From assembly GCA_015178975.1 (NCBI GenBank), contig WHVD01000023.1:806001-870000 (forward strand): a DNA stretch of 64,000 nt, written 5' to 3'. Shown one piece after another: positions 4,775-28,894 of the stretch (the stretch's first letter is position 1; each line of letters starts with the position of its first letter). Position numbers and translations under genes: made by a program. Source of the DNA: Hysterangium stoloniferum. Taxonomy: Eukaryota > Basidiomycota > Agaricomycetes > Hysterangiales > Hysterangiaceae. Under the pieces are notes generated by a model, which saw only the letters and a program-made list of their open reading frames with translations, did not search any database and was not told the DNA's origin.

Positions 4775-4794
4775 TAGTACAATAGTCTACATAG

Positions 4795-5237: not shown

Positions 5238-5256
5238 TACATCAGATTTTTGTATA

Positions 5257-6040: not shown

Positions 6041-6106
6041 GAGTTAAGCCTCTGCCCCACCCCATGTTTCAAAAAATTTAGGCCACTATCTCTTTTTCCT
6101 TACTGT

Positions 6107-6372
6107 AAGGTTCAGCTTTGGATATAGCGTAATCCTTCAGTTGAGCTCTTACAAAGAGGAATGCACAGAGTAGGAATAGGCTCCAATTCGAAAAAGACTA
6201 CTCTAACTAGTGGGGGGTTCACCTATTTATGCTAGCAATCATAAGCTACATCTAATAAGTCTGAAACCCTTTAATGATCGAAAACTTCCAGTGTCTTCTC
6301 GTTACTCCTTACCATCTAAAACTAGGGCGGTTACCCGCCCGATTCAAAGTCTGCCACCACATCTGCTCCGTT
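6107..6372. mobile_element. MITE-like insertion (266 bp)
   Basis: Comparison with the inverted duplicate at 20960-21000 shows uninterrupted CCTTACCCATC there. Here the site is split by 266 extra bases beginning CTGTAAGGTTCAGC and ending GTTACAC, with a TTA/TCA pair flanking. Ends are weakly inverted. Size and a three-base TWA-like duplication suggest a PIF/Harbinger-type MITE; no coding capacity is seen. Confidence 0.5.
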
Positions 6373-6402
6373 ACACTCACCCATCTTATTTGACTTATTC
6401 AA

Positions 6403-6823
6403 AGTGGGTAAGGAGCCAGTAAGGGTCTAAGACAACAGCCGATTTCAAGACGGCTACCTTATTTTGTTCCCTGTGTAATGACATTTATACTCACAATAAG
6501 GAATCCCTAATATTTACAAGACGAAAAAAGGTTAGTATTACATAATACATGATCACCAAACAACCATGGTACTAGAGCTAAAGGATGATATGAAACCGCT
6601 TTTCCTAATTTAATGAAGCCCAGTTTCAGCTCGCTAGAGTAAGGTAGCATTAAAGCCAGCAGCTGCCCGCTTGTCCACTCCTCTGACATGTATCAACAAG
6701 GTGACATGGAGGTGTGCCCGAAGCAACTCCATGCTACATGGGGGGGTGGTATTCAAACTTGACGGTAGAATATTTGCAGTAGGGTATTGTTCCAAAACCA
6801 TAGCACCTGATTTCTCGAAATGA
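6403..6823. mobile_element. Unclassified insertion in the duplicated unit
   Basis: The duplicate at about 20895-20930 runs straight from GACTTATTCAAA to CAATTTT; here about 420 bases intervene. I see no clear terminal repeats, no open frame of note and no target duplication. Confidence 0.35.
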
Positions 6824-6943
6824 ACAATTTTGTGTCTACCCTGATCAGACTGCTACGAAAATTAAAGAGCAGAACGTAGGGTAAAACCGACATACCCATA
6901 TGCTCCATTGATAGTCATCGAACAAACTGTGAATATCTGCGTG

Positions 6944-8090
6944 GAGAAGCATAGCATTGTGAGGACGATCTGCAGCCTGACGAGTAAGTACTTGTGCCCG
7001 AGCAGATGCTGACAGGATCGCTATTCATTCTCTCTGCATGTGAGAAGTGAGAAGAATAAACTCCGTGACGTAAGTCTGTACTCACGTCACCAACACTCAT
7101 TAATGGATATGTGTGCAACCTCAAGCCCGGTGAAAGTGCCACCACGAGCACGTTTAACAGAGGTCTAGCCTAGGCAGCACTTATCTCTCATGCGTACGGC
7201 AATGCGAGTTCCGGTATTCTGAGTTTGCTAAGTTGAAGTTGCATGATAACCGTAGCAATGGTAGACTTACACGAGATGGTGTGCCGCTTGGAGAAGGTGT
7301 ACAGGTCTGCGATGGGGAACGGCTCCGCCGCTTGAATTTGGTGGAAACGAGCTTTGGCCAAGCAGGGATAAATTTCTTACCCCCCCTGTCTGGAACAAAA
7401 CGTCCAACGTAGGCGTTCGGGGATGAATGGAACCACTATTACCAAATCGATATATCATATAATGCCCCTCTTTCACTGAACTTGGGAGGGTTCTCGCAAG
7501 AGCAGGAGACTCTTTAGGGTGTTCAATGGAGCCTATCGAAAACGACATCGTCCCTCGGATCCTTGGGGCAGCGGAACAAAGCCATGTTTCCGGTCTCTAC
7601 GATATCTCATTAGAGGGACGCGCAAAGAGAAGTATTATCAACCACATCTGACCACGCGTCTCGAGTTCCATGATTGTGTCGAGCCAGCTATAAAACATGG
7701 GAACCGGCAGCCCCCCATTGTGTACATAACAACCTAGAGCTTAGTGGGACCAAGTATGTACGAATGCAGATACCAAGTCCACCGGCAATTAGTCCAAGAG
7801 TGGGTTTTGTGTTCAGTTTTTTGCTATTGTCGGAGCACGGCCTCACAATGGAACACCATACATGTACATTTCGTTCAGATTCGTTGATGTAAGAACCATC
7901 CGAATCTGCTTCAGGTAGGTATTCCATGGACCTAATACTTGAACTCAGGAGTATCGAGGGCGACAACGAATGCAAGAAAAATTGTATGAAACATGAAGCA
8001 GAGATCAATCGAGGTGGCGTTGTAGATGTACTCATGTTTGACATTGTTTTGTCATATTTGTAACTTTGTATACGCACGAGTCACACCGCT
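6944..8090. other. Host-like DNA, no confident gene
   Basis: CpG content is host-like. Frames of 60-130 codons occur on both strands (for example minus 7267-7548 and minus 7688-8077), but none shows a recognisable motif or a splice chain I could close. The homology with the inverted copy ends sharply at 6943. Confidence 0.4.
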
Positions 8091-9418
8091 ATGTACGAAC
8101 CCGTTCACGTCTTGTCCAAAAAATCCACTCGACAACACCGCAATGTCTCATTTGGTGCACTAAATCGCACAGCCTGGTCTTAGGAGAGTTTTTTTGACGT
8201 TCAATCTCCAAAATCGTCCTCAAACTCATATTTAGGCTGGCGTGTTGATAACAACTCACCCATTACTGTTTCGACAGCATATCGCTGGATAACCGATGCT
8301 GTTTTGAGTCGAGCTCTGTATCATGCTTGGGAGGAAGCCGAGACGTATACTCTCTTCCCGGTCGAGGTTCGACCTAATGATGTGTTGACGTATTCTGTCC
8401 ACAAGAATGGCGCTGCCTTGTCCCGTGAATCTCAAGACATCATTTTTCCGGGAGACTATGGGTTATATGCTATAGGCAAGAATACCATTTCGTGTACCAC
8501 TACAGGCTACGTGACCTTGACACAGGAAACCCCGCACTTTACTTTTTCTTCCATCCAGTTCACCCATTTTCGAGTATGGAGGAAGTAGTGGAAGAAAATA
8601 GCCGGTTGCTCTCCGCCAAGGTACCTCATTGTGTCGTGGAATGTGGTTTACTCTCTCTGATGCTTAACAGGCGTCCTTGACTGCCCCTATCATTCAACAA
8701 GCTCTCGATAGAGATCGTCAATGCATTTTTTCTGGTGTCGTGCCAAGCTGTGGCTCTGATGCGCTGGTAACAACATGGGTATTTCCCCCATTCATGGGCT
8801 ATAAGGCAAGTGTGTAACATTTCGAACCATCGCATTTATGTTGATATTTTTGGCGATCCTTATTATCCCTAATAAGCTGTCAGATGACCCATGGCTAGAG
8901 AACAAGTACTATCAAAATCCCGATGCATGCGATCTAAGCGACTTGATGGTGGTCGAAAATGTCGTATCAGGTCGTAAGGACATTGTCACTCTCTTTTGGG
9001 AAAACAAACTCGGCGTTGACGTTGAAGTGCGTATTCTCCCTTTCAAATAGTTAGCTGTGGTATCCATGACATACAGGACGATTATCGCATCATCTTATTC
9101 GAGGGGTCGGAAAGCTTAAACAGTGGTGTACCGTTGAAAAGCCATATGATCCTTATCGATGGGCCCTATCGACCTAGCGACCGGTTTCTCCGTCTGCATT
9201 TCCAAGAATGCCTTGCTGTCAGTGTCGGCCGTGGCGACGTCACGGAAGATTACCGAGATCAGGAGATTGAGAATTTCATGGAAGAACTTGGCGTTTACGA
9301 TGACGAGATAGATACTGGTGATCCAAGATGGTCGACCCCGCTAGGTTCACATGTCCATGCTTACCTCATAAGGCAGAAAATGGCAGAACAGTCAGTCATC
9401 TTTTGTATTTCTTTGTGA
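8091..9418 (+). CDS. HNH_2-type nuclease-like protein (spliced)
   Basis: Exons inferred from consistent phases: 8091-8102 (weak), 8184-8493, 8559-8620, 8671-8809, 8884-9026 and 9077-9418; introns are 50-81 bases. The product of about 335 residues resembles basidiomycete HNH_2 proteins. It has an N-terminal AYRWI segment, a PGDYGLY segment and the RDRQCIFSG motif that opens the HNH fold. A DPWLENKYY segment and a Leu/Asp-rich stretch follow, with an acidic C-terminal tail. In HNH_2 enzymes the residues after the Cys motif read roughly Leu-x-Ala-Ala-His-Ile-x-Pro and supply the metal-binding His. Here that place reads LVTTWVFPP with Trp instead of His, so nuclease activity is doubtful. The stop at 9418 may be replaced by a last exon ending TAG at 9600, which also has an open frame. 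Confidence 0.6.
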
Positions 9419-9600
9419 GAAACACGCCCTGAAGGAGCACCGTCGGTAGCGATATGACCAACATCTGAACCAAAGTAACTACCTCACGACACCAGGATGC
9501 ACGCTATGATGACCAACGGAAGGTGATTGTGCAGGATGTGCCTTTTAATTACATTACTTTCTATCCTGTCCTTGGTGTTCCCATGAATCCAATAACGTAG

Positions 9601-11428
9601 ATACTCCTTTTATTGGGAACTTGCGCAGAGCACAGTAGATATTAGAATATAACTTGGCTTCTATCTATGAGTAAACTACTGGGGATTATATATATCTATG
9701 GGGAGAAGGTTCTAGAAGGGATGACAGAGATATCACTAAAGCTATGTTAAGTATGTTCCAAGATATTCTATAATATTCTAGGGATGTCAGGTTGATTACC
9801 AACACCTTTGCTGTGAACGGGCACATTGGTAGCAAAACAGGGACTTGCCTACCCGCCAACTGTAAGCCTGGTGAGGCTTACAAGCCCCACCACAACGCAC
9901 CTTTAATATTTAGTATCCGCTTCCTTAGATAATTACGATAAACGCGCATAGTAGTTTTTTCATTATCGTTTTACCTGCCGTCTCTGTTCATTGACGAATA
10001 TACTCGAGTCCTATCAACACTTGGGCTGAGACTTAGTGAAGCTGCAACTGACGGCAGCCTTACACCAACTATCCCTTTGTAGGCCATGTAGGTGTACAAA
10101 GGTATCAACCATTTTCTTGATGCGTTTTCAGTTTACTCAGTGCTTATCACTCATTATAAGTTCCCTGTCACCCCAAAATACTCCGAACCCATGTCAGTCA
10201 TTCAGCAGACAAACCTTATCCTCACTGAATGTTTGGCTGTCCTTCGGTTGTAGTCGTCCTTTGCTGCGTTGGATAATTTGGTTCGTAGTCTGCGTTGGCG
10301 TTCTCTGGATATCTGGCGTTTTATTCGTGAACTTTGCTCCTGGTTCTCTTTATAGATATGTGCCTTCCATGGACGGTATTCTCCGCGGTGACCATCGATC
10401 CCGACCACCATATTACTCGGATTTGTCGCCACCCCCAGTACGCCCCGTACAATTATTTCCTTGGACATCGCAGTGATCCTTTCGTCCCGCGCTAGATGCA
10501 TGGAAGAAAACACCTGTGAGGTTGATTCCTTGTTTAGGACGGTAGTGGTGCCCAACTTCATGGGATCCGCGGGAAGAGCAGATGGTGATGTTTTCAAGCG
10601 CAATTCATGAAGTGATGGTGGGGGGAGGGCATGGCATAAGCTTTGTTTGAGGTGCATGGAAGGTCTTGTTTTACTTGATTCTACGCGTATTACTGAGAAG
10701 GATGGGGGGGAGGGGAGGGGTTGTGTTGTAACTGCTACTCAAAGGTTCGGTGCTCGCATTTCCAACTTGTGTTTGCTAACGGCGTCTTCATCAAAGCTTC
10801 ACGGCCAGTGGGAAGTGGGTATGCGCTACTCTGACATGACTGAAATATGGCAAGTACCACATCTTTGTTCCTTACATGGCACTCATGTACATATACCGAT
10901 ACAGGTATACTACTCATTCTTCGGATTTCCTTGAATTTTTGCTCCATAGCCTGTGTCACTCCGATTGCCTGTTTCAACTACCATGGCATACCTTTGACTG
11001 AACTACTACTTATGTAGATACCAGCTTCAAATAATGACAATTTTTCGATGGATTGTTTTTGTTAATGCACCTGTCATTGATACATATGTTGGAATTTGTG
11101 GTTCAGAACCCTAAGTACCCACATGTATCCATAATAGTCCCTATCCATGTCTGTGACTCTGTCCAGCGTGCTGTTGTCTGAGTTCGGTTACTTCTGGTAA
11201 CCAGTATGTGTCCGTGTCCGAGTGGTGGTCTATTCGTCCACTAGGGTCGCTATTCAATCTACCTGTCCATGTTGACCGCACAAAACTCAATGTTGACATT
11301 GATGGCAGTGTACTGCGACGCAACTGGCGGTGGTCCCATACGTATAGCCTCCGCGGGGGAAGTACTAGTACCCAATGCGGATGGCTTTGTCTTCAAAAGT
11401 ATCTTGAAATGTATTGGTTTAGCGATGG
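9601..11428. other. Mostly unassigned; short hairpin at 9861-9882
   Basis: The left 400 bases contain a perfect 9-bp stem with a 4-base loop (TGTAAGCCT GGTG AGGCTTACA). Frames on both strands at 10036-10657 (151 codons on minus, 146 on plus) and short frames at 10735-11425 may be exons of a host gene. I could not link them by splice phases or recognise a domain. Composition is host-like with many CpG. Confidence 0.35.
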
Positions 11429-11763
11429 CTGTGAGGGCCATGGGAAAGTGCCGCGCAGGGTGTCGCGCTGCCGCGCAAGTGCCGCGACACCTCAAAATGC
11501 CCTCAAATACGCATTTAATTAGCATAAAATAAATATAGTTTTGTATATATTCTTCATAATATATCATATGTCTACTGGGGCTCTGCTAATTTACTTTAAG
11601 ACTGGGTTTAATGTTTAAAATTGTGAATTAGCCACTTTTTTAAGAGTATATATCATTTAAAATGGTATTTTGAGTATTAACATTCAAAATATAGCTATGT
11701 TTTAGTTTGAAGCCAAAATGTATATTCGCGGCAATTGTCCACTTTTCGCGGCACCCCTCACAG
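11429..11763. mobile_element. Short element with GC-rich palindromic ends
   Basis: It starts CTGTGAGGGCC and ends CCCCTCACAG, a 9-10 bp terminal inverted repeat enclosing about 335 bases. Inside each end lie repeats of TGCCGCGCA / TGCCGCGAC. The centre is AT-rich and has no gene. The left end reappears in CpG-decayed form near 15371. It may be a MITE or the subterminal part of the large transposon that follows; no target duplication was seen. Confidence 0.45.
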
Positions 11764-12315
11764 CAGTGCGCGGCACCTACACAGTGAGATTCAATGTCGG
11801 AGTTTGAAAAACTTCTGAGCCTCGACAATATTTGCAAGTCCTGACCCAAAGCACACTATATCATTCAGTGACACTCTGATCAGCTTTTCTACTATCCACT
11901 GTTATTGAGCATTGTTTCTTTACAGTTATTCTACACTTCTGTAAGAGTTTGGGAATCTCTTACTTTGGAAAGGTTTACTATCCTCCTCTTAGATAGTTGT
12001 CTCTTTTTCTTATTTTTTATAGCTTGCTCTTTGGTTAGGAGTACCTGGCTGATAGATTAAGACAGTGATAAGTTACATCTTTCACTTATACAGTGTGAGT
12101 GGCTTCCACTCTAGACTCTAAGGTGTAGGTTTAGTGTTTATCTGTTTTGGTCACTCCCACAGCAACAGATTATATTATACCAGTCAGGGAAATATATCCA
12201 ATACACTGCTTACTGGACTTCCTGAAATTTACAATATTCAGTTATTCCTCTTACATATTTCTCTAATGGTATATCATCATAACATTTTTTTGAACTGATT
12301 CTCATGTATTATTTA

Positions 12316-15275
12316 TATAGTTTCTGTTCCATCATTTTCACAAACAATTTGGATTTCATTCTAGGCCTGATATTGTCAATACCAAAGACAATAAACCAAA
12401 AGTATCTATTCCTGGAAAAGGTATGCCAAGTTTCCCTTAGTGATGTCTTTATTTTACAAATTATATACATACTGTATGTAGTTATTGGACTGTACCATCA
12501 TGGACCTTATCCACCTAGGATGTTACCTGGTTATGACCATAATGGCAATGCTATCTACGAGCATGATGGTTTACAACATTCAGGATTCTCAGTAAAAATA
12601 CAAAAAGGTACCATATCACAATACCTTGAAGAGAAGTTTCAGACAGTTTCAGGCATATCTTCATATACCAGTGCTGTTATATATGTGTTGCAAGGTGGAA
12701 TTAAAGCTCAGGAAGAGTTTCAGAAAATACAAAAAAAAGTCTTGGCTAATCACCATATTCTTTTAAACTACAATTCTTCAGCAACACTGCCTCAAGCCAC
12801 TCTAAATGCTACTATCTTTTCTCTATTTCCATCAGAGAAACACTTTTGGCTTACAAACCCCAGTAGGCTTGATATTCAAGATTATATTGTATATCACCAC
12901 AAGACATTCCTCATGTGACTCCAAAGCAAATTCAAATCATTCCAAATGCATCTAGTACACTCAAAAGACAAAATGGCAATCAATCTCATATATCAATCCA
13001 ATCTGATGAGGATGATGAGGTATCCTATCCCCAACAGAAGTATTCTCAAAGATACCTTCAAAGAGTAGAGTCTGATGGTGAAGGCCAGGTGGTAATTCAT
13101 GAAGCAAAGCCCAAAAGACTCCCAAAATCTATGTCTATGCCTGCCTTATCTCCCATACCTGAGATTCCTGGGATAGGTTCTAATGTTTCATTATTTCCAA
13201 TCTCATGTCGCTGTGGACATACTGGTGATGGAAATGAGGAAGCAGCTCAAGGGTTTGCCAATGACTACATTCACTGTGATGAATGTCATAATTGGTCTCA
13301 TATTGCTTGCCAACATGAAGGAAGAGCTAGTAACTGTAAGGGTACGCTGGTTACGTTTCCAAACCCTGCTTTCCTATGCTAGTACGAGCGCCTAGTTAGC
13401 ACGCATCCCCTAGATATGATCTCCATCTCCTGGTTAGTTATTTAGAGTTTGATAATGAAAGATATCCTCCGATTACCAGATGATCAATGGATCCTCATCC
13501 ATCGATCTATCTCCATAATACAGACTCTGGCACTATGATAGTTTGTGGCTATTTCCATGTTCCCTAGATGCCTTAGAGGTGTATATAGGAGTAGCTAGCT
13601 CATGTGTATTCACTAACTTGATATCGATTTGGCTTTCTGTCCTATACCTTAGTCCAAGGTTACTCGATCCCTCACAGTAACCTTGGAAATAAGCCATTCA
13701 TTTGTGATGAATGTGATATGGTTCAGATTCAACTGGCATTGCAATTTTGATCAGAATGGTATGTGAACTTGTTTGATATTTGGATAACCTCTTACAGTTG
13801 TTTTAAATAGCTCAACAGCTCAACAGCTAAATAACCATGCTACTCAACCTTTGCACAAGCACCTCTTGTAAGTTTCCAAATCCAAATCCACCTTCAATTG
13901 TCTTAGTGCATGTTAATCACATGTAGACCTGGTTTGGGTGCCCTTGCCCAAAATGGGAAGTATTACTATCCTGTGCGGCTAATTTGACTTGATCATGATT
14001 CTGATCCCAAAAGATGGCATGTAAAATGGTGGTGACACAATCACTATCATAATCTATCTTCAACAGAGTCATGGATTCTAGAACATGATGTTATTGACTC
14101 CTTGTGGAGGGACCAGAAGTACAGATGGAAAATTAGAGTAACCTATTTGAAGGTATTTGTAGTTATTAACATAACTGAAGTTTGACTTTATAGTTGGGAA
14201 AATGGGATTTGGTGTGCTCATTATCACAGGAGGATGACAAGATCTTGGATTACCTTCATTATCCCTCATCTCCAATATTTGATGCTCTTCTGAAACCTCA
14301 TCTTCCATTACTTAACAAGCTGGTGAAGACACCAAAACAAGTTAGAAGGGAATAATGTCCTGCCTTGGATTACCTGTACACTGGGAAGGCTATTTCAGAG
14401 TTGAGGGCTGAATCCACTTGCCTTAAAAACCATCTTATATTGTTTTCTGGAAATCTCTCCTCCATACAAATTGCCATGAGACATTATTGGTTGCATATGA
14501 ACCTAGACTCTGGTACAAGGAACAAGGATAAATGGATCCAAAGAGTACCTGCAGCCCATGCAATGACTCTTCTTATCCTCAAACAGTCCCACACCCAATT
14601 ATCCCCTGATGGCCCACCTTTTGAGGATCTTCCTAAACATACACAACTATTTCAAGACCTACTGAAGCACTCATGGCATATACAGCATAGCCAGGGACCA
14701 CCTTTCCCTGCTATAGATGTTGACAAAGAGGCCATTGGATTACTTGAACATGAAATGTTTGAGACTTCAAAAGCAGCAGGGCCTGCCAGCTTTCAACAAT
14801 GGAGATTGGATGCAGGTAATCATCAGAATAGATGGAGTCCATATCCTTTTGTTCCCTACTCTTGGAATGAATGTGATATTCCTGAACCAGAGGAGACTGA
14901 ATATCAGGTATTTTCCTATCAATTTCAAAATCTGATATAGATTACTACTCATACTTTGATATGTATAGCATGGGCCAGAATTTAGTGAAGGCAGTGAACC
15001 AGACACTCAAGAATCCCATATTTTCCCTCTAAATAGACCAAAATCTTGACCAGCTCTGAAGCGCAAAGCAGAGGAAGTGTGTGAGGAAGCTTTGTTTGAG
15101 AAGCAATCTGAAAGAATACTCAGAAAACAACCCAGGTTGAATTATAAAGAGACTTGAAGGTATAAAATATTTTAATGCAAATAAACAGAGTTTCTGTATA
15201 TATAATTTGCATTTTAAGAGGATTTCACACATAGTATTTGACATTTTTTGGAGCCTCTGTCATCCATAAGTAAAG
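12316..15275 (+). pseudogene. GCM/MULE-type transposon, copy A (core deleted)
   Basis: Frames at 12304-12918, 12915-13382 and 14365-14940, with stretches between, encode parts of one large protein. They are: a short N-terminal piece; a region reading IYEHDGLQHSG...AVIYVLQGG that resembles the end of a ubiquitin C-terminal-hydrolase-like fold; a PHD-like finger (CRCGHTG...CDECHNWSHIAC); and a PWWP/Tudor-like stretch near 13925-14140 (YYYPVRL, then Trp-Trp). A C-terminal region follows. Compared with copy B, about 3.5 kb holding the zinc finger and DDE core are missing, joined at a CC shared by both sides (about 12529). Several TGA stops interrupt the frame where Arg is expected. Copy A keeps about 1.15 kb of C-terminal sequence that copy B lost, so it shows the true end of the protein. 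Confidence 0.65.
13334..13677. mobile_element. PIF/Harbinger-like MITE in copy A
   Basis: This 344-bp insertion starts CTGTAAGGG and ends CCCTCACAG, flanked on both sides by TAA. Copy B at about 16305-16315 shows the empty site (GCTAGTACCCTTGG). A three-base TWA duplication and short inverted ends are diagnostic of PIF/Harbinger-derived MITEs. It has no gene of its own and splits the PHD-like finger region of the host element. Confidence 0.75.
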
Positions 15276-15370
15276 TTGTTATTCAATGTGCCAAAATAGA
15301 AAGGGAATGGTAGTTTTTCTGTAGAGAAGTAAGTTTAAACGCAATGTGATGTAACACCATATTCAGATTG

Positions 15371-15840
15371 GATTGCAGGGCTATAGGAAAGTGCTGTGCA
15401 GGGTGTCATGCTGCCGTGCAAGTGCCACAACATGTTTCTTTTTTCAAAATCAGTAGATACTTCGTCAATTTTGTATTGAAAATTACCAAAATAAAATTAT
15501 ATATGACATTATATCATTAAAACATGAGCATGTTACATCTAGTGTACATTTTCCTGCTGAAATATACCTTGTGCACCACTTTAAGTGGCACATACTTAGT
15601 TTTAGCCCTTCCTTGAGTGGTATTAATTCTCAAATAAACTTATTAAAGTCTTAAATAATAAAATATAACTTCTAAATGACATGGGTTCTAGGTTTACATG
15701 AAAAACTTGCATGTCACGGCAGTTACCTTCCTAATTAGGAAGTGCCATGCAAGTCATGGCAGTTGTCCTTCCTAATTAGGCCGACTGCCGCGACCTGTGC
15801 AGCACTTCCTCATTAGGAAGGTAACTGTCACGACACTGAA
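15371..15840. repeat. Palindrome-rich spacer between the two transposon copies
   Basis: It opens with a CpG-decayed version of the 11429 end (GTGCTGTGCAG against GTGCCGCGCAG). It closes with nested inverted motifs around 15710-15840, including CTTCCTAATTAGGAAG and repeats of CATGGCAGTT/CTGCCGCGAC. The 3' ends of copies A and B face each other across it. Confidence 0.5.
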
Positions 15841-15954
15841 ACAACTGTACTTGTGGATGAGAGGCTCTAAAAAATGTCAAATACTATATGTGAAATGCTT
15901 TATATTATGTTATATGCTCTTAAAAGTGAATATTATCTACAAAAAACTTTGTTA

Positions 15955-15985
15955 TTAGGGGTTAGGGGTTAGGGTTAGGGTTAGG
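15955..15985. repeat. Interstitial telomere-type repeat
   Basis: Two TTAGGGG units are followed by two TTAGGG units and a partial TTAGG. They lie in the 3' untranslated end of transposon copy B, at a position where copy A has unrelated AT-rich sequence. TTAGGG is the usual telomere repeat of basidiomycetes. Confidence 0.9.
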
Positions 15986-18187
15986 ATTTACCATACCTCT
16001 ATGTCTTTTCATAATTCGCCCTGGGTCATTTTCTGAGTATTCTTTTAGGCTGCCTCTGAAATATAGCTTCCTCACCCATTCACTAAGATAATTGAAGGTG
16101 AATTTGGATTTGGAAACTTACAAGAGGTGCTTGTGCAAAGGTTGAGTAGCATGGTTATTTAGCTGTTGAGCTGTTGAGCTATTTAAATCACAACTGTAAG
16201 AGGTTATCCAAATATCAAACAAGTTCACATACCATTCTGATTGAGGTTGCAATGCCAGTTGAATCTGAACCATATCATATTCATCACAAATGAATGGCTT
16301 ATTTCCAAGGGTACTAGCTCTTCCTTCACATTGGCAAGCAATATGAGACCAATTATGACATTCATCACAGTGAATGTAGTCATTGGTAAACCCTTGAGCT
16401 GCTTCCTCATTACCATCACCAGTATGTCCACAGTGACATGAGATTGAAAATAATGAAGCATTAGAACCTATCCCAGGAATCTCAGGTATGGGAGATAAGG
16501 CAGGCATAGACATAGATTTTGGGAGTCTTTTGGGCTTTGCTTTATGAATGACCACCTAGCCTTCACCATCAGACTCTACTCTTTGAAGGTATCTTTGGGA
16601 ATACTTCTGTTGGGGATAGGATACCTCATCATCCTCATCAGATTGGATTGATATATGAGATTGATTGCCATTTTGTCTTTTGAATGTACTAGATGCATTT
16701 GGAGTGATTTGAATTTGCTTTGGAGTCACATGAGGAATGTCTTGTGGTGATATAAAAATATAATCTTGAATATCAAGCCTACTGGGGTTTGTAAGCCAAA
16801 AGCATTTCTCTGATGGAAATAGAGAAAAGATAGTAGCATTTAGAGTGGCTTGAGGCAGTGTTGCTGAAGAATTGTAGTTTAAAAGAATATGGTGATTAGC
16901 CAAGACTTTTTTTTGTATTTTCTGAAACTCTTCCTGAGCTTTAATTCCACCTTGCAACACATATATAACAGCACTGGTATATGAAGATATGCCTGAAACT
17001 GTCTGAAACTTCTCTTCAAGGTATTGTGATATGGTACCTTTTTGTATTTTTACTGAGGATCCTGAATGTTGTAAACCATCATGCTCGTAGATAGCATTGC
17101 CATTATGGAACCTTGATGTAAAGTGTTGAACAGATGGTGAATAGATGGCTTTGCCTACAAGGTTGTATTGGAGACGTTCAAGATGGGTTGAATTCTGAAA
17201 TAATTTGAGCTTTTTAGGCAGACACCATGTCTCTGTGAAGCCCTCATAATCCAGGGACAAAACAAGCATGATAGGAATGTGTATCCAGATTTCCATTATA
17301 GAGGGTGTACTCTTGCATATCTGTTCACCTTGACATGATTTCCAACAAGCATCTATATGATCTGAGCTTGGAAGAACTTGTGAGTATAACAATGATTGCA
17401 AATTGCCATTGCCATCTGGTAGTGTTTGAGTTGAAGATAGTGAATTGTTCATGTCTTTGGCAGGCTGGTGAGTTGATAATGGGCCTCTTCCTGGGTTTTA
17501 CAAGAGCAGAATTGGATTATTTGGGCTTCAAGAAATGGAAGTGTTGCATTATCACAAGAATGGCTATGAAACTCTTGAATAGCCCTCTCAAACCAACCCA
17601 TGAGAACATCAGGCTCATTAATTGCTTTAATAAACTTCTTTTGAAGGAGTTGTTCACGTAACTGATCACATTTGGTAGAAATCAATATACTTTCTTGACC
17701 ATTGAATACCTCACCAACAGTAATCAAATGCTCTTCAAAAATATGGTATAAAAAAGAGAGTAATAACTGAGTATCCAGTTGTGAAAGATTTTGACATAAT
17801 GCTGGCCAATAGTGATAAACTGCCTGGTATATGAGTTCAAGAGAAGTATCCAACCAACAGGAGTTTTCCTTCTATTGGTATCCTGGAATCAAAACAGATT
17901 TCTTTTTCTTGCCTTTGGTACCAAGAATAAGTGCCTTAGCAGTATCTGGTGGAGGACCATCATTTTGAAATCTTTTAGAAGTTGGATTTCGGTGGACTTT
18001 AGTTTGTCCTAACCGATGAGCATTCTTAGTCCAAGGTTTCATAGTCCCATATGCCACTGGTATTCCTGATTGTTTGGCAATGCCCTGCATCTCTAGAAGA
18101 TTCACAAATAAAAATAATCCCTCTAGACCTTCCATAAGTCCTAAATTATGACCAAGCCCACTGTAAAGTCTAAAATGCATGGCTTCC

Positions 18188-18821
18188 TGTGAGAAGTATG
18201 GCGAAATATACTCAGGAAATATAGTCTGGATGAGCTCATACTATATTTCCTTTATTATTTCTACTTTCTCTCTATTTTATTATACACTTATAATTAGTTC
18301 GATGACCTATGTATGCGGTACATCGACTCTTGTGGGTGCATACATGCCAGACTTATGTATTCTAGCACCCGTAGTTAAAACTCAGACACTTTTTACCCCA
18401 CAACCATGACTTACCCAAGACACCAGTTAGTGTCCTGTAAGTTGTGATTGGGGTATTGTCTCCACCATCACAGATGGGCTTTAACTATCTACGCAATCAG
18501 AGTTTTGAACTGTACCAGTCGAAACTCCATCTTTATCTCAATCCACGTGGACTACATCCGCACTACTCCATTACTCGACTCTCATTACTCTATTTTACAC
18601 TCGAGCAGTCATCCAGAATCATACTTAACAGTCAATTCTCCTTATTCATCCTAACTCTCTACTCTACTTTAGATAGCTACTTCACTCAACCGTATTGAAC
18701 TAAGTAGTCAATATGTGTTCAGTCTGTATTAGACTTAGACAGTCAATACATCTTAGTGTCATACCTAAACGGTCGATATTCTTCAGATATAGAATGGTTA
18801 GAACTTCCACCACTCTTCACA
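18188..18821 (+). mobile_element. Solo LTR of gypsy III in copy B
   Basis: This 634-base LTR begins TGTGAGAAG and ends CTTCACA. It is flanked by perfect CTTCC duplications (18183-18187 and 18822-18826). It matches the complete LTR at 51961-52594 over its whole length. The internal part was lost by LTR-LTR recombination. Confidence 0.93.
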
Positions 18822-20802
18822 CTTCCTCAGCATTTGTAGTATCTGGTAGTCACTCCCAGAGATCTTCTTTCATGGTTCTAAATGGCTTAAAAAGCATCCA
18901 GGAAGGTCTGTCCTGCTGCTGCCAATCCATCCAGTTTTTAACACCTGGAAAGTCATGTATAAGTGCTGCAGTATGTGCTTTAAAGGCCTCTGCATTGATA
19001 GTCTCTAACAAACCTAGAGCATGTGATTCAAAAGTGTCCTGTAGCTGGGGTTGCACCACACCACTAATCCTTTTGAGATGAGTGATGCCAGTATGAAAAT
19101 GCTGATAGCATCCTTTCAAAAGTGAGTTGCTGCCTTAGTTAATTCCTCATTATTTCATGTATTGCCTTCCATAGTTGACCAAAACTGAATAAAAGCCTCC
19201 ATAAAGCCATTTGCCTGAGCTTGACTGAAATCAACAACACATGCAAACATTTCATCAGTTAATTGGTGTCCCTGCTTCTGACATTGAGAGGCAATACTTT
19301 GAAACAGCATTAGAAAGTGTATTCGATAATGATTGGAAGTGGTGCCATTAGCTGCTGAGAAGAGAACTGGAACCCAACAATAAAGATGTTGAGAATATAC
19401 AGATGATACTATAAGCACCCAATCACTCATTCTCCAATAGCCATGTGCAGCATCAGAGACAAATCCATGGACAGCATCATACTGAACAACATCTAGCATT
19501 ATTTGTAGCTCCATCCAAGAAGTTTGAAGTACAAGGATTGTAGTTGGTCCAACCTCACTATAACATAAGAAATCAGGATGATGAGATCCAAACTCAGCCA
19601 ACTGTTCCAATCCTGATTCTGCAGTCCCTCCAATAATCTTATTTCTCTTGTGAACAATTGTCTTCTCATACCAAATACAATCAACATTTAATCGAACTGG
19701 GGATATCTCTGTGACAGATGTACCTGGACCAGAAAATCCAGGAATGCCAACAGCTAATTGTAGTGAGCCCATTTTTGGATGTTCCTGAAATATTTTGTGG
19801 AGCTGAGATCGTTTATTGGGAAGAAGATGGAGTTTATGAGTGAATCATTGGTGAAGATGTGTCCCACCATTGTGATACATAATCCCATTTTTATAATGAA
19901 TAAGTGTGGACAGTACATTGCATGCCACATGATGTAAATTCCATCCACAGTCACAACTACATTTTAATTGCTTTTGAACACTAGCATCTCTGGTCTGAGG
20001 CTGAATGACAATATCACAGTCAGGATTTTTGCAATGTATGATACCCAAACATTTACACTTTGTATACTTTCCACCATCTAAAGTTAAAGAATTTATATCA
20101 TGGTGTTTATCCCCACCTAGCACTATAGTTGCCCAGTAAACAGATAATTTGTTGAGGGCTTCATATTCAGTATGTGTAAACTGATATGACCATTCACCAT
20201 TAGGCCATCCATCCCAGTCTTTAAATTTTCTATTTTCCATTTGTCCAATAGATGATTGTAGATCCTTGAGATGGTTCCCAGATATGAAGTTAGGAGATGG
20301 TGATAATTTCTCTAATTTTGGGAAAGGAGCTGAGGGAGCAGTAATGGTACTGTTGGGCTTTGGTGGTAATTTTGATAAAGGAATTGAGGGAGTAGTAATG
20401 GTAATGTTGGGCATTGGTGGCTTGGAAGCAATATCATCAGGAACAGTGTGAGATTGGGCTTGGGAATTGAATATAGATAGGTTGATATAATTTGGATTTA
20501 AAAAATAACCAAAAGGATTTCCTGTCAATAATGAATTCATTGTTCTGTATTAAATAATTGAGTATAGCTTGTACATACCGTCCAGGTCGTAACCAGGTAA
20601 CATCCTAGGTGGATAAGGTCCATGATGGTACAGTCCAACAACTACATACAGTATGTATATAATTTGTAAAATAAAGACATCACTAAGGGAAACTTGGCAT
20701 ACCTTTTCCAGGAATAGATACTTTTGGTTTATTGTCTTTGGTATTGACAATATCAGGCCTAGAATGAAATCCAAATTGTTTGTGAAAATGATGGAACAGA
20801 AA

Positions 20803-22012
20803 CTCCACGCAGATATTCACAGTTTATTTGATGACTATCAATGGGTATGTCAGTTTTACCCTATGTTCTGCTCTTTAATTTTCATAGCAGTCTAACCAGG
20901 GTATACATAAAATTGCCCTTTTTGAATAAGTCACATAAGATGGGTAAGGAAAAAGAGATAATGGCCGAAATTTGCTGAAACACGGGGTGGGGCAGATGCT
21001 TAACTCAAGATTTTAACGTAATATATATATATAGATCTTCTGAATGATAAAAGGGGAAAGTTACATTGAACAAAGTGTCAGGACACCATAGGTGGCAACA
21101 CCATGGTTGGGGGTGCCGATAGTGGAGTACCAGAGGGTTATGAGGGCAAAACAAGCTTGCAGGGGGCAAACAATAGGGATTCTAACACATGGCATGGGAT
21201 GGTGTTGGATTTACATGCAAGATTGATGGAAGGATGGATGCTGAAATGTATGTTCAGATTCTGGAAGATGATCTTCAAGAAAGCCAAAACATGGTTTGCT
21301 GACAATGGGGTTAAGGTTATGTCATGGCCCACAGTCTTAGACCTTAATCCCATTGAATGCCTAAGGCATCACCTCAAAAAGAGACTTGGAGAATATCAAT
21401 AGCCACCAAATGGGATACTGGAATTGTGGGAGCATGTGCAAAGGGAATGGGATAGGATGAAGCCAGAGGTGTGTCAGAATTTGATTGAAAGTATGCCTAG
21501 AAGAGTGGCAGATGTGATAAACACCAAAGGAGGTTACCCAAAGCATTGATACATCGGAGTTTATATGTTTCAGAATGTCAGGGATAAGACCTTTCTCATG
21601 ATGATCCTCAAAAGAAATATTTGTATACTTACCATATACAGGTACTACATAATTGTTATTGTACAGATAAGATGTCATGATGTCAGAGTATCCAGGTGAA
21701 TCCTTTCATATTTCATTTTATGTCCATGATCTATGTATAAACAAAACAATCTGAAATGACAAAACATGAGAACAGTTTTCCCTCACTGTATACAAAAGCT
21801 GAGGTAAGCCTAATGCTGTAGAACATAGAACTTCAACAGTAAGAGATACTGCAATATCTCTAACTGGCTGTAGGAGTAAGATGGAGTGTAAGACTTAAGC
21901 TTCTCATTTAAGAATGGGCTTTGTAGATAAGATATAACAAGATTGCTTATTCAATAGTGGGAAAAGAGAGGCCCTTATATACATGAAGAAGTACAGGTTA
22001 AAACAAACATGT
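20803..22012. repeat. Inverted copy of the 5.0-6.9 kb unit
   Basis: Read in reverse complement, it matches 6943-6824, 6403-6373, 6106-6036, then the truncated Tc1 and the LTR V block. It lacks both insertions found in the left copy. The homology begins exactly where transposon copy B ends (20802/20803). Confidence 0.8.
21020..21788 (+). pseudogene. Truncated Tc1-like transposon, copy 2
   Basis: It is the inverted partner of the 5257-6040 copy. The frame 21103-21402 carries the C-terminal half of a DDE_3 transposase with DLNPIE and a basic RHHLKKRLGEY segment. The following frame to about 21546 continues in decayed form. The outer end CCCTCACTG abuts TA. The N-terminal part and one terminal repeat are absent. 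It is CpG-poor. Confidence 0.75.
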
Positions 22013-22025
22013 GGTTAAGTGCAGG

Positions 22026-22620
22026 GCTCATGGGTGGGTCTCCAGAGACCCATTTTCACAAATGTGCAACTTACTGCATCAGTCCATGCTACTTACCTCA
22101 TTCATCCAGTTATGAATGGTATTGTCATTATAGACATTGAGAAACTATACCAAGATATTCTATCAGCAATTCCACTAAACCCTGTAACCAAGGCACACAT
22201 ATACAGCCCCACAGACCCTGGGAAACACTGGTGGTCTCAAGACTCACAAGGTTTCATCAGACTTGACAATTGCATCTATGTACCAGACTCTGATGGCCTC
22301 CACCTCTCAGAGTCACCCAGTATGAACATGACCATCCACTTCCAGGACATTTTGGGATCAACAAAACTCTATCAATGATTAGAAGAGAATATACTTGGCC
22401 CAGACTCTGGAGTTTTGTTAAGCACTATTGTAAATCATGTATTACTTGTTTACACTATAAATCACCACAACACAAGCCATACAGCCTTCTGAAACAACTC
22501 CCAGTATCAGAGCTCCCATGGAATTCCATTTCTATGGATTTCATTGAACACCTACTGGACTCTGATGGTTTTTCCACAATACTAGTTAGGGCAACACTAA
22601 CTAGGCTACCAAACACAAGA
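22026..22620 (+). pseudogene. Gypsy integrase fragment (family I-like)
   Basis: Frames 22019-22378 and 22375-22623 correspond to the stretch between RNase H and the first integrase Asp of the 33.6-42.9 kb element. They share IIDIEKLYQDILSAIPL, a His/Cys zinc-binding module (HYCKSCITC) and SMDFIEHLLDSDGFSTILV. The sequence ends abruptly near 22585 and has a frame break. A GGTGGGTCTCCAGAGACCC LTR-like piece precedes it at about 22033. Confidence 0.8.
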
Positions 22621-22623
22621 TAG

Positions 22624-24193
22624 AATATAGAAATATGAAGGAAAGAGGGGACAGCTCAATGACAAGGGAGATCACACTTGTTTTAGTGGGATTCCTAAGA
22701 GATTGAAACTAAAGACTAGCTATGTACATGCCCCCTATTTATACTATTTATTTATTTTTTATGAGAAATCAAAGGAAAGTGCATATACATATGCACTAAT
22801 GTTGGGCAAACTGGCGCTTGCATCAGCATTAACTTTGTTTGCATTGGCAGGGCACACATCTGTGCACAGGGACAGCTTTACCAGGCTGTAGGCAGTGATG
22901 GCAGCCTTGCAACAGTGATGGTGACAGTGGCAGTGGCCTTGCAATGGCTGTGTGATTACATAATCATGCTCACACCTGTTGTAGAGAGTTCAATCAGAAA
23001 GCAACTTATTATTAAAAATAGTATGAGTTGACTCTATTGCAATACACAATATACAAGGGTTTAATAAGCTTGTAATAAAAGTACTTTGTGTCTCAATATC
23101 TTGTGTCAGTTAGTGTAGCACCTCCTGACAATATAGGTTGGATGCTCTGGGAGGTGTATAGTGGTTCTGACACACATTAACCTCCAAATGCATGGTCCAC
23201 AATTAGCATCTTCATATGAAAAGTTGCAATAATTGGTGGACTCCCCCTATAAAAAAGGTGTGTTTCATCATCAAATTTAACACTTATATGGCTATAGTTT
23301 CAAGTCATGTCACAAGCACAAATTCTTATATATACTTTAGCACTCAAGATGACTTCTACACGGCCAGATCAGTTTCATCAATCAGAGGTGCAAAAACTCC
23401 GTCATGTTAAAAGCTGCATCATCCTCCAAAGTAACCCTGAGTTACTACTCAAAACCAACTCCTCACTCCCTAATAGAACTTGAGAAGTAACATTTCGATT
23501 CTCTTCATGCTCAGACATCATATGTGAGCCTGAACCAGCCTATTAATACTCCTCAAAAGAACACCTTCATTACCTCCGTCAAAAAGGTATTTGACCCCCA
23601 TATACTCCAGACAATCCTGTCTTTATTCGTCTATATGATAACTCCCATGAACTCTTCCACCATCAATTCGATTGAGTACTTCGGCAAGAGTGTTCCCCAC
23701 TATCACAGGGATTCTTTTACAAGGCAGTGTTCACTCCAGTAGGAGGTCATAGAGGTCCCTCATTGAGGATGTTCCCCATTCAAGAAGGGAGTCAAATAGA
23801 GCCTCCTCGAGGTCATCATCAATTCGTGTTCCTTGCATGGTTGTGGAGCCTACTCACCACCTGGTTTTAATGTGGTGATTGATTGTGTCTCCTCCTTATA
23901 CTGCAAAATTAGAAACAGAACACATCCAATCTCAGTTCATTGATTGGTAGTATTGTCAAGATTTTGAAATCAAGCATAGCATTTGAGGGTGACACATTAT
24001 CATCAATGTTTCATCAGCCATCACTTCTATTACTCCATCTCTCCTATTGTCTGACTCAGTTCCCCCCTATTGTTCTATTGTGTTTCCCCATTTATCCATA
24101 TCACATGTCTGATCTCATCTTTTGTTTGTCATTCTCTTATTGTCCAGTGCAGCCTCCCCCTTTTTTTATTCACAGCTTTACTAACATTCTTAT
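22624..24193. other. Decayed transposon-rich DNA
   Basis: An LTR-like block (about 22590-23130, starting TTAGGGCAACACTAACTAGG and ending CACCTCCTGACA) is followed by a broken reading frame from about 23350 to 23880 with TGA and TAA stops. I could not assign it; a retrotransposon gag is one possibility. No intact gene is present. Confidence 0.35.
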
Positions 24194-24464
24194 TGTGATG
24201 ACTCAGAGATGACTCACACCATATCACATCGTTATTGTGTTGTTGTTTGTAGATGTTTGTTTTGACCTGTGCTTCCTCATGTATATAAGGGCCTCTCTTT
24301 TGCCCACTATTGAACAAGAAATTTCGTTGTATCTCATTTTGAAGCTCATTCTTAAGGACATTCTCTTAAGTCTTACTCTCAGTCTCACTCCTATGGCCAG
24401 TAAAGGATACTGTAGTGTCTCTTATTGTTGAAGTTCTACAATCCTTGACATTGGGCTTATGTCA
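24194..24464 (+). repeat. LTR V, best-preserved copy
   Basis: It runs from TGTGATGACTC to GGCTTATGTCA (271 bases). A TATATAAG box at 24283-24290 is followed by CCCACTATTGAACAAG, as expected for a promoter and R region. Two further partial copies lie at 5031-5237 and 21800-22010. Confidence 0.65.
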
Positions 24465-24738
24465 CCCTTTTGTATTCATCTTCGATTATGTCATCCAAGG
24501 TCCAATCTCTAGCCTCTCACTCCGAGTGTGTTTGGTTATAGACTGGTTTCATGAATGACTGGGTTAGTGACTGTCATAAAGACTTGACCATTGCACACAG
24601 GTTATTAGGGATATTCCTAGTAACAAACTTACACCGTATCTGTGTGTAGGTGCATATATGCACTTTATAAAATATAGAAAAATATAATAAACTTAAATAA
24701 AATAAATGGCAACCATATATTATATATATTGCCCTGAC
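24465..24738 (-). repeat. 3' LTR of gypsy II, minus copy
   Basis: On the minus strand the integrase frame is followed by a polypurine tract (AAGGAGGGGGTGA, about 24739-24760) and then TGTCAGGGCAATATA. This matches the layout at 32290-32310 of the plus copy (AAGGAGGAGG then TGTCAGGGC). The outer edge is uncertain because it touches LTR V. Confidence 0.55.
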
Positions 24739-24891
24739 ATCACCCCCTCCTTAAGGCACATTGCCCTCAATGTGCTTGCCAGAGGTCCAAAGGGTTCCAG
24801 CCTGAGCCATAGTCTATGTGCAGTTGATATAAGTTTGGAAAGGGAGTCTACTGAAGGTTAAGGCAGAGATCCTCCTAGGTGCAAAGGGGTG

Positions 24892-26196
24892 TTAGCTATG
24901 GAATTTCTTCACTAGTTTTTTGGAGTTTCCAAGATTATCAGCAGGTTCCCATGTGTATTCTTCTTGAGGGTACCCTTTCCATTTCACTAGGTATTGTAGT
25001 TTTCCCCTTGCCAATCTGCTATCTTTGATATATTCAACTTCCCACTCAGCAGTTTCTCCCTTAACAACTGGAGGAGGCCTAACTGGAGGCCTCCCTTGAA
25101 TAATGTCCTCATGGAAAGGCCTGAGCTTGGCTACATTGAAAACTGGATGGATTTTCATGGAAGAAGGCAGTTTTAACTCATAAGCATTTGGACCAATAAC
25201 TTTGGTGATTTCAAATGGTCCATATCTCTTGTCTTCTAGTTTTTTAGATGGCCTGTCTGTCTGAATGTCTCTGCCTTCTAACCATACTTTATCTCCTGGT
25301 TTATAGATGTCTGCCTCTTTTCTAGGCTGGTCATAGTACCTAGCCATATCATCAGGAGCCCTATGGAGTGCAGCTTCTGCTTCTTTCCTTGCCTCCTGCA
25401 TGTCTTTAATAAACTGCTCCACAGATTTTACTTGGCTGCCTCTGAAAGGCTCAGTCCCCAACCTAGGATGCCTGCTATTATTCAGAATAACAGATGTCTG
25501 CCTCGTAGATGATTGAACTTTGTTGTTATGGCAGAATTCTGCTAAAGACAACCATTCTGCCAAGTCATCCTGTCTGTGATTCACAAAGAGTCTAAAGTAT
25601 TGTTCTACCTCTTGATTTACTCTTTCTGTCTGGCCATCTGTCTGAGGGTAATAGGCTGTAGAAGCTGCAACTTTGATCCCTAGGATTGAATTCAGCTCCC
25701 TTGTGAAATTTGAGACAAACTGGGGTCCTCTGTCACTGATGATCTGTAAGGGGAGACCATGGAGTTTCCATACATTGTCCCTATAGAGCCCGGCAATGCC
25801 TTCTGAAGTGATCTGGTCTGTAGTGGGTATGACATGAATCATTTTGCTAAATATATCCACTACTACCATGATGGCATTGTATCCTTGGCTTTCTGGAAGT
25901 CCAGTAATCAGATCCACAGTGATGATTACCCAAATGTCCTTAGGAATCTGGGTTGGTACAAGCTTTCCAACAGGACTGGCAGGATATGTCTTAGTTCTAT
26001 TGCACCCATCACATCCTTTGCTATAAGATGCAACAAATCTGGAGATTTCTGGCCACCAGTAATTCCTGGAAACCAATTCTAAGGTTTTCCATCTGCCTGG
26101 GTGGCCACTGGCATGAGCATCATGATGCAGTTCAACAATCTGCCTTCTAAGTTCCATATCCTTTGGCACATAGACTTTCCCTGTTCCTCTGCCCAC
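24892..26196 (-). CDS. Gypsy II integrase with chromodomain
   Basis: A 434-codon frame with a His-His-Cys-Cys module near the start (HHDAH...GCDGC). The DDE core has VDLITGLP with Asp, SDRGPQF with Asp, and Glu in QTERVNQEVEQY. After the core come a GPF/Y-type stretch (YGPFEITK) and a C-terminal chromodomain (WEVEYI...YLVKWKGY...TWEP). The chromodomain directs integration toward heterochromatin in chromoviruses. All catalytic residues are present, but the frame is cut off from the RNase H part by a shift near 26200, and the upstream gag is missing. The domain could only be made as a separate product. Confidence 0.88.
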   Translation of the reverse strand: MGRGTGKVYVPKDMELRRQIVELHHDAHASGHPGRWKTLELVSRNYWWPEISRFVASYSKGCDGCNRTKTYPASPVGKLVPTQIPKDIWVIITVDLITGLPESQGYNAIMVVVDIFSKMIHVIPTTDQITSEGIAGLYRDNVWKLHGLPLQIISDRGPQFVSNFTRELNSILGIKVAASTAYYPQTDGQTERVNQEVEQYFRLFVNHRQDDLAEWLSLAEFCHNNKVQSSTRQTSVILNNSRHPRLGTEPFRGSQVKSVEQFIKDMQEARKEAEAALHRAPDDMARYYDQPRKEADIYKPGDKVWLEGRDIQTDRPSKKLEDKRYGPFEITKVIGPNAYELKLPSSMKIHPVFNVAKLRPFHEDIIQGRPPVRPPPVVKGETAEWEVEYIKDSRLARGKLQYLVKWKGYPQEEYTWEPADNLGNSKKLVKKFHS

Positions 26197-28113
26197 TCTG
26201 TGCCCTCAATCCTTTTACTTCCTGACTTTTTCAGTTCTTCTACTGTCTTGACTACAACTTCTTCCATATCCTTGGCCTGTCTGATTTTCTTCAGCAGATC
26301 TGTCTCCTGACCTACTAATACAGCATGACCCTGCTTAAGAGCTTGGATCCTGAAATAAGAAGGCTTGAGAAGGGTAATATCTTCATTATCCCTCTCTCCT
26401 TTCCCATGATCAGGTCTTCTGGATAAATCATCTGGTTTTGGGAACTTTTACCAGGCCTATGGTGTAAGGTGAAATCAAATCTGGATAAAAACAGGGACCA
26501 TCTAGCCTGCCTCCTATTAAGCTTTTTGGCAGACATAAAGTACTCTAGATTTTTGTGGTCTGTCCAGATTTGAAAGGTATGACTGCTCCCTTCAAGATAG
26601 TGCCTCCATTAATCCAGAGCTCTAATGATAGCCAGCATTGCTTGTCATGAATTTCATAATTTCTTTCCACTTCATTAAGACTTTTAGATAAAAAGGCTAC
26701 AGGGTGCCATTTGCCATCTGGTCCTTCCTGAGACAAGACAGCACCTGTTGCAAAGTCAGAACTATCTGCCTCTAACTTGTAGGATTTGTTGTCATCAGGA
26801 AAGACAAGAATTGGAGATGAAGTGACCTTGTCCTTCAGGCCTTGAAAGGCTACCTTTTCTTCCATAGTCCACTTCCATGCTGTATCCTTCCTTGTCAGAT
26901 TATGAAGGGGTCTGGCTATTTTTGTAAAGTCCTGGATAAACCTTCTGTAGAAGTTGACAAAGCTTAGGAAAGATTGAATCTCCTTGACTGTGGTAGGTTC
27001 TGGCTATTTGGAGACACCCTCTATCTTCACTGGGTCCATAGAGATGCAGCCATGTGAAATGATAAGTCCAAGATATTCAATCTTTTCCTTTACAAATTCA
27101 CATTTTTCTGCTTTCAAATAAAGCTTGTTTTTCTCCAATATTTCAAAGAACCTCTTGACTACTTCTCTATGTTGTTCTAGAGTGTTTGTGAAGATAAGAA
27201 TATCATCCATGTAGACAATGACAACTTGACCATCAATCAACTCTATGAACAAGTCATTCATCATGGTCTGAAATGTAGCAGGACTATTGGTGAGACCAAA
27301 GAACATGACCAATGATTCAAACAGTCCTCTGTTGGTTCTGAAAGCTGCCTTCCATTCATCTCCTTCCTTTATTCTGACATTGTTGTAGCCCCATCTGACA
27401 TCCAACTTAGTGAAGTATTTGGCTCCTTTTAACTCGCTGATAATGTTAGAGATAAGTAGTAGAGGATAGGAGTTTTTGATTGTGATGTCATTTAGCTTTC
27501 TGTAATCCTGGACCAATTGTAAAGAGCCATCCTTCTTCTTTATAAACAACACTGCAGATGCCATAGGAGACTTGGAGGGTTGGATCCTTCCACTCTTAAG
27601 GTTCTCTCCTAAGAATTCATCCAGTTCCTTCTGCTCATGTGGTGCTAAAGGACAGAGCTTGCTTCTAAAAGGTTCTGATCCAGGCTTCAATTCAATGGCA
27701 TGATCCCAGGGTTTCTTATCTGGAAATCTATCAAAACTCTTTGGAGAATATTCCCTTGAAATGGTGATAACATTTTGGGACTAGTTCCTCAAAGGTTTTC
27801 TTCTGGTCTTGTTTGTGAGATTCCTCTGCCAACTTCTGTGATACAGTAGAATTAGCATTGATATTAGACTGAGGATAGATAGTTGTAGCCCAGATCCTGT
27901 CACTGTCTTCAACCCCCAACTGATCATCTTCCTGATCATCTTCATCTGCATCCTCAATGAGACTAGGAAGTTTCCTTCTAGACTCTGCTGCCTTCCTTTC
28001 TTAATTCTCCTACTCTGGAGAGAACATTCAGGTGGACACCTGGTCAAATCTACTTGTCCAGTTCTCCAATTGATTTCAGGGTTATGGTGAAAGAGTGTTA
28101 AGTTCCGAAACAA
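26197..28113 (-). pseudogene. Gypsy II protease/RT/RNase H, broken
   Basis: Frames 27004-27690 (RT with KKDGSLQLVQDYRKLN and YMDDILIF), 26545-26865 (RNase H with LEADSSDFATG) and 26315-26536 (RNase H end, [11 protein letters not shown]) are in different phases. The part 27731-28113 before RT is fragmentary. The second RT motif reads DVRWGYN where most copies have DLxxAYN. Gag and the 5' LTR are lost: the sequence passes into an unrelated LTR remnant near 28115. Confidence 0.85.
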
Positions 28114-28114
28114 A

Positions 28115-28870: not shown

Positions 28871-28894
28871 GGCTAGAAGCATGTATTTCTGACT

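Follow-up and report, generated by a model that had tools for sequence, protein, structure and literature searches.

The window analysed here, a 64,000-nucleotide stretch of Hysterangium stoloniferum DNA (assembly GCA_015178975.1, contig WHVD01000023.1, positions 806,001 to 870,000), carries one repeat twice, in inverted orientation relative to each other and with an intact gene in neither copy. Our best explanation as a whole, mechanism included, is that this repeat is probably a Mutator-like DNA transposon with one multi-domain transposase. With far greater confidence, the sequences point to the architecture itself: a GCM-like zinc finger, a D-D-E catalytic core, a ubiquitin-specific protease (USP)-type domain, a PHD finger, a Tudor-like barrel, and a C-terminal tail are almost certainly encoded by one spliced gene. 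An initial annotation, made from the letters of the window alone, had proposed such a transposase on the basis of a series of motifs, and these motifs are indeed present, distributed over the two oppositely oriented copies. The observation goes beyond chance because pieces of the core and of the middle part are multi-copy in the genome (at least 142 and at least 137 places, respectively, in the 111 Mb and 554 contigs scanned) and because several genomic copies keep the identical order of modules.

The reading as one gene is carried by open reading frames, introns, and relatives. Six genomic copies were inspected for frames, and none of them is unbroken, yet their natural open frames overlap and tile the element: a frame of 548 amino acids in copy C112 comprises finger and core, one of 210 amino acids in C63 the end of the core, the third catalytic Glu (TTNAEEAMH), and the Cys box of the USP-type domain, and one of 592 amino acids in C232 runs from the Cys box through the PHD finger. 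C63 additionally bears a single frame with two stops from the finger through the PHD finger. The PHD finger and the barrel are linked by two short GT-AG introns of 39–40 bp (GTATGT...ACAG) and 58–63 bp (GTAAGT...TAG), both of which were recognised by a script in 14 of 47 stretches. When these 14 are read across the introns, one (C232) is free of stops, 11 show one to five, and two frameshifted copies show 16–17. In P0004, a relative from Hygrophoropsis, PLEKRLLAGKGALARHGKYYYPVRL is the counterpart of the spliced junction PLHKCLLPGLGALAQHGKYYYPVRL. Finally, 24 of 41 relatives bear all five modules in the same order in one predicted protein. Overlapping frames, introns, and five-module relatives together rule out a distribution of the segments over separate genes, and the single multi-module transposase of the initial annotation stands.

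These relatives comprise 32 proteins obtained with the C63 reading and 13 obtained with the USP part of P0004, nine of the latter being new; the second search reached proteins near the length of P0004, and any stand-alone USP relatives would lie beyond its reach. Three are from Puccinia, one (P0011) is unnamed, and 37 are named and come from 17 genera, which we take to be Agaricomycetes; among named relatives, those closest to the element are likewise Agaricomycetes. Pfam hydrophobin matches 18 places in the genome, and with these relatives it points to a mushroom-type fungus. Two metagenome fragments are 81–90% identical to the element. Module profiles were built from the first 32-protein set minus Puccinia and applied with a threshold of E<=1e-3. 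Core and USP profiles match all 41 relatives—the USP matches being short or weak in P0030, P0031, and the Puccinia proteins. Among the nine relatives outside profile building, the core is matched in nine and the GCM-like finger, the PHD finger, and the barrel in eight each; since these proteins were found via their USP part, only the other modules count as independent. The distant Puccinia proteins P0032, P0033, and P0034 match the core profile, the USP profile weakly, and in two of three cases the GCM-like one, hinting that core and USP-type domain might have been joined before the basidiomycete classes split. The family alignment omits the fragments P0001 and P0002, and all residue counts below are over 29 relatives, leaving aside both the element and its three Puccinia relatives.

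On the DNA level, the element is delimited by terminal inverted repeats. The terminus pattern GGGCYATRGGAAAGTGCY occurs 227 times exactly in the genome (115 forward, 112 reverse), against 0 + 0 for the same pattern written backwards. Eight elements were paired by hand from at least 16 visible end pairs; five of these are flanked by exact 9-bp target duplications and one by a duplication with one mismatch, in line with the 8–11 bp (mostly 9 bp) of Mutator-like elements (MULEs). The shortest end pairs that enclose the full module order measure about 7.07 kb (C112, 7065 bp; C97, 7085 bp). In seven of the eight elements, one end bears CCATGG and the other CTATAG, C124 being the exception; likewise in seven of eight, GGGCCATGGG stands at the 5' end and GGGCTATAGG at the 3' end, so that the two ends differ in a fixed manner. 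Within the core, the first Asp is kept in 28 relatives, the second Asp in 29, the CxxH motif in 29, the Glu in 28, and the Trp in 23. This is the D-D-E arrangement of MULEs with a CH motif and a Trp between second D and E. Its spacing of 74 (D-D) and 136 (D-E) compares with 69 and 136 as taken from the residue numbers given for Muta1 in the available part of its description (PMC5225508). Because of termini, target duplications, and catalytic anatomy, we file the element under MULEs as a Mutator-like DNA transposon, with a presumed RNase H-like fold of the core.

The middle part is predicted to adopt the fold of a USP-class cysteine peptidase across the whole catalytic domain (model from 14 relatives; 11 entered the C-terminal model). 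The fold matches listed are USP-type enzymes only, directed at ubiquitin or ISG15; OTU or other cysteine peptidases might appear further down. The catalytic residues follow the order of C19 peptidases—a Cys box, then His, then Asp or Asn—with the Asp 15–29 residues after the His. Cys is found in 25 relatives (three gaps, one Gly), His in 26 (three gaps), and Asp in 25 with Asn in three more (one gap). Fold and residues thus support a predicted USP-type deubiquitinase, and with it the ubiquitin-hydrolase-like part of the initial annotation, including the upstream C19-type Cys box and the conserved Cys, His, and Asp for which it had suggested to look. An hmmsearch with the USP alignment against PDB sequences returned no peptidase. 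Ulp1 proteases belong to a different peptidase clan with a different residue order, and Ulp1 identity is excluded by this order. VTD identity is likewise excluded by residue order, as the Asp-x-His motif defining this domain in the available part of PMC9741609 does not occur. In the P0004 segment of alignment A4, C160, H169, C218, and C228 are invariant between Cys box and His box; these three Cys and one His could coordinate a metal within the USP-type domain. The Pfam UCH model marks 150 places in the genome, by eye none of them among the listed core or middle places of the element. Many of these matches are short, exon-like, and clustered (C1:1.80-2.81 Mb, C113:0.82-0.99 Mb, C140, C145, C198, and C244), and stretch L092 reads NSCYM...QQDTQEFF, so that a USP-type gene family appears to have expanded locally.

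For the finger, Pfam GCM matches 12 relatives at E<=1 (best 2.9e-5; 19.6 and 19.0 bits against a cut-off of 25 in the two relatives shown singly), and its Cys and His are largely conserved in the family alignment; against the whole genome, as against the control genomes, Pfam GCM gives no match. Pfam PHD matches 15 relatives at E<=1 (best 2e-5), the C4HC3 pattern is present, and a PDB profile search with this part returns mostly PHD proteins. In relatives, the PHD assignment of the initial annotation is hence borne out, and that of a GCM-type finger is tentatively supported. Searching Pfam and PDB with single sequences from the frames of the element itself yielded PHD matches below threshold and otherwise chance matches. 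For the barrel it had offered a PWWP/Tudor-like label. Tudor, chromo-barrel, and PWWP chains share the match lists of the predicted structure, so that its naming is a matter of preference: we prefer Tudor-like or chromo-barrel-like, a moderately supported assignment. When three subgroups are compared by their majority sequences, the ratio of nonsynonymous to synonymous substitution rates (dN/dS) is below 1 in every domain, with 0.28-0.32 for the finger, 0.33-0.40 for the core, 0.29-0.41 for the USP part, 0.53-0.75 for the linker, 0-0.14 for the PHD finger, 0.23-0.27 for the barrel, and 0.14-0.21 for the tail. The relative values are the useful result: the subgroups were delimited manually, each contributing 5-16 copies per domain, some of their majority sequences (several) contain a stop, and CpG decay (0.19 observed/expected in the element) affects the counts. 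Constraint is similar on the USP part and on the core, and weaker on the linker.

Several results weigh against this picture. Two of the eight paired elements, C54 and C124, show no target duplication. The match to the anatomy of Muta1 is incomplete because the distance from D to His is 44 in the element versus 24 in Muta1 and that from Trp to Glu 11 versus 18 (available part of PMC5225508). Pfam MULE matches none of the 29 relatives at E<=1, and its three places in the genome all belong to another family; compared with this other MULE family by hhalign, the core profile gave nothing above column-shuffled controls—a weak test, given three near-identical targets. Pfam UCH, a narrow model rather than a structural definition, matches none of the 29 relatives at E<=1 either. 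The USP profile failed on 11 frames from five host USP loci except for the Cys-box stretch of L069, which scored above its 10 shuffles. The Foldseek matches of the barrel lie below significance.

Mechanistically, the GCM-like finger would bind the inverted termini, and the core would cut the element and re-insert it with a 9-bp duplication. The PHD finger and the barrel might hold the complex on marked nucleosomes, and the USP part could free proteins of the donor or the target site, e.g., histones or repair factors, from ubiquitin or a similar tag. We infer the binding of finger to terminus, the catalytic activity, the tag removed, and the place of action. An action of the protease on the chromatin or repair side has, in our estimate, a little less than an even chance. 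Bolder and more tentative is the notion of a USP-defined transposase lineage, maintained throughout Basidiomycota, that edits chromatin by itself: its readers would dock on marked nucleosomes close to active genes, and its USP part would remove ubiquitin there from histones or repair factors—one polypeptide that finds, opens, and helps to repair its target.

Alternatively, the USP part might shield the transposase by deubiquitinating its own complex and thereby letting it escape the proteasome, with PHD finger and barrel merely placing it. Deubiquitinases are known for such a habit, and each of the 41 matching relatives has protease and transposase joined in cis. This would leave two reader-type domains in 24 of 41 relatives unexplained, though not in conflict with it, and we regard it as rather unlikely. 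Somewhat less probable still is an activity of the domain on SUMO or a different ubiquitin-like tag, as in USPL1 (C98), by which it would counteract a silencing of the transposon that depends on such tags. The CWLD Cys box of the domain presumably resembles that of USPL1, and C98 is the only peptidase family matched in Pfam, although weakly (two of 29 relatives, best E 0.066); the listed fold matches to ubiquitin- or ISG15-directed USPs speak for another tag but are not decisive. Ulp1 proteases on Mutators are described as targeting SUMO-type tags in the available part of PMC2836005, which would fit such a role.

A core from another DDE group, e.g., a Rehavkus-like one, rather than from MULEs proper would agree with the failed Pfam MULE and profile comparisons, and the available part of PMC6446971 describes Rehavkus as an outgroup with a PHD finger and a 9-bp duplication. 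Since D-D 74, D-E 136, CxxH, and Trp are as in MULEs and accompany a GCM-like finger, we consider this improbable. Three relatives with Asn for Asp and one with an aligned Gly for Cys might indicate a catalytically dead domain that binds ubiquitin or serves as a scaffold, which the conservation of Cys, His, and Asp in most relatives and the constraint on the domain render very improbable. That the modules are independent genes, or gene fragments brought together by chance, as the rearranged window copies with their differing module sets could suggest, has next to no likelihood, given the order shared by many genera in one predicted protein, the overlapping frames of genomic copies, and the constraint on each module.

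Comparable fusions are in print, and what follows refers to the available parts of the papers cited. Ulp1 (C48) Mutators—Kaonashi of plants and those of hydra, lancelet, and melon—combine a MULE with a protease for ubiquitin-like tags as the element does (PMC6117577, PMC2836005), whereas in the element the domain that separates core and PHD finger has a predicted USP fold. The hydra MULE MuDR-6_HM carries a deubiquitinase-type domain ('Ovarian Tumour Gene'), i.e., OTU rather than USP, and its table entry notes no finger type, PHD finger, or barrel (PMC6446971). Ginger1 resembles the element in carrying an OTU or Ulp1 domain behind the transposase, accompanied by a PHD finger in a single family, but has a Gypsy-integrase-like core and no USP (PMC2836005). 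A Trichomonas vaginalis protein fuses transposase_11 to Peptidase C19; it is a single protein with an IS5-like core, and finger, PHD finger, and barrel go unmentioned (PMC2836005). Helitrons with VTD or OTU carry deubiquitinases as well, with VTD activity demonstrated, but they are rolling-circle elements, and VTD uses Asp-x-His rather than Cys...His...Asp (PMC9741609). The active Aedes aegypti MULE Muta1 shares a finger, a D-D-E core with D-E 136, CH motif, and Trp, and 8-9 bp duplications; it has 504 amino acids and a FLYWCH finger, and protease or reader domains are undescribed there (PMC5225508). MULE-Phytophthora_1 (SET domain, 14 members) and Rehavkus (PHD finger) join a MULE or a near relative to a chromatin-type domain, but to a single accessory one and to no USP (PMC6446971).

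Ubiquitin-like-tag proteases recur on several unrelated transposons, and two reasons for their carriage have been put forward: a role in DNA repair was suggested in the Ginger paper (PMC2836005) and one in germline defence for VTD (PMC9741609). Mutators, Ginger, and Helitrons that bear proteases of the Ulp1, OTU, and VTD types are thus already on record, as is a single C19–transposase fusion from Trichomonas (PMC2836005, PMC6117577, PMC9741609, PMC6446971). No MULE with a USP domain was found in the literature searched, which covered little subscription literature; within that scope, a lineage of MULE type that combines a USP-type domain with GCM-like, PHD, and Tudor-like modules and is conserved through Agaricomycetes is new. 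Here, a protease, two probable chromatin readers, and a core are kept together in one protein across 17 genera, so that each module could be mutated separately to measure its effect on integration, repair, silencing, or transposase stability. The finding further suggests that proteins of mushrooms with no label beyond 'GCM domain-containing' or 'PHD-type domain-containing' can belong to a single transposase and need not be host regulators.

In the window itself, the element was correctly located by the initial annotation, while its limits of 12316..20802 require revision (Table 1). Both copies are dead, with stops, frameshifts, and inserts, and the plus copy in addition bears a large internal deletion. 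Its boundary at 11435 is common to copies C57, C262, and C97, whose flanks are unrelated. The 5' part is kept to 12538, followed by a jump to the end of the USP-type domain. As the identical junction occurs in three further genomic copies (C57, C262, and C1:2537306), the plus copy looks like an amplified nonautonomous derivative. The minus copy is cut off where the full-copy matches end; its terminus at 15378 has the orientation expected for a 3' end, and its USP-type domain contains one in-frame TAG just before the Cys box and one frameshift.

Table 1 Features of the two element copies in the window
Feature	Position	Strand	Basis or remark
Plus-strand copy, internally deleted (nonautonomous)	11435..15377	+	5' terminus up to minus-copy start
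5' terminus, inverted-repeat end GGGCCATGGGAAAGTGCC...	11435..11484	+	0-mismatch pattern match
Internal-deletion junction	12537..12538	+	minus-copy counterparts: 12538 = 20585, 12537 = 17108
End of USP-type domain, His/Asp part onwards	12538..12741	+	tblastn
PHD finger, first part, match extends into insert	13191..13379	+	tblastn
341-bp insert within PHD coding part	13335..13675	+	gap versus full copies
PHD finger, last part	13676..13720	+	tblastn
Tudor-like barrel, 2 stops in plus copy	13937..14137	+	tblastn; structure comparison
Conserved C-terminal part, 1 stop	14194..14913	+	tblastn
Minus-strand copy inside plus copy; 5' end truncated, 3' part internally deleted	15378..20804	-	
3' terminus of minus copy	15378..15395	-	3-mismatch terminus match; 2 window matches versus 0.05 expected
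PHD finger, minus copy	16271..16444	-	tblastn
Predicted USP-type (C19) domain	16904..17898	-	Cys box near 17857-17859; predicted-fold matches, tblastn
Region of the third catalytic Glu (other copies: TTNAEEAMH), broken by insert	18127..18192	-	tblastn
Insert of ~635 bp, not in other copies	18188..18822	.	89% like window 51961-52594
Transposase core, both catalytic Asp and CxxH motif, one frameshift	18856..19814	-	tblastn
GCM-like zinc finger	19824..20219	-	tblastn; Pfam in relatives

The edges of the ~635-bp insert overlap by 6 bp in full copies, which suggests a 6-bp duplication, and a 6-bp overlap is seen for the 341-bp insert as well. The observed/expected CpG ratio is 0.19 in 11435-20804, 0.85 (1-5000) and 0.71 (5001-11434) to the left, and 0.10 (20805-30000) to the right, the low values marking strong decay in repeat-rich parts, as after methylation. 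A further inverted repeat pair lies at 20944-22042 and 4999-6103 (92% alike), and the frame at 21070-21402 has a terminal stretch that we take to resemble Tc1/mariner transposases.

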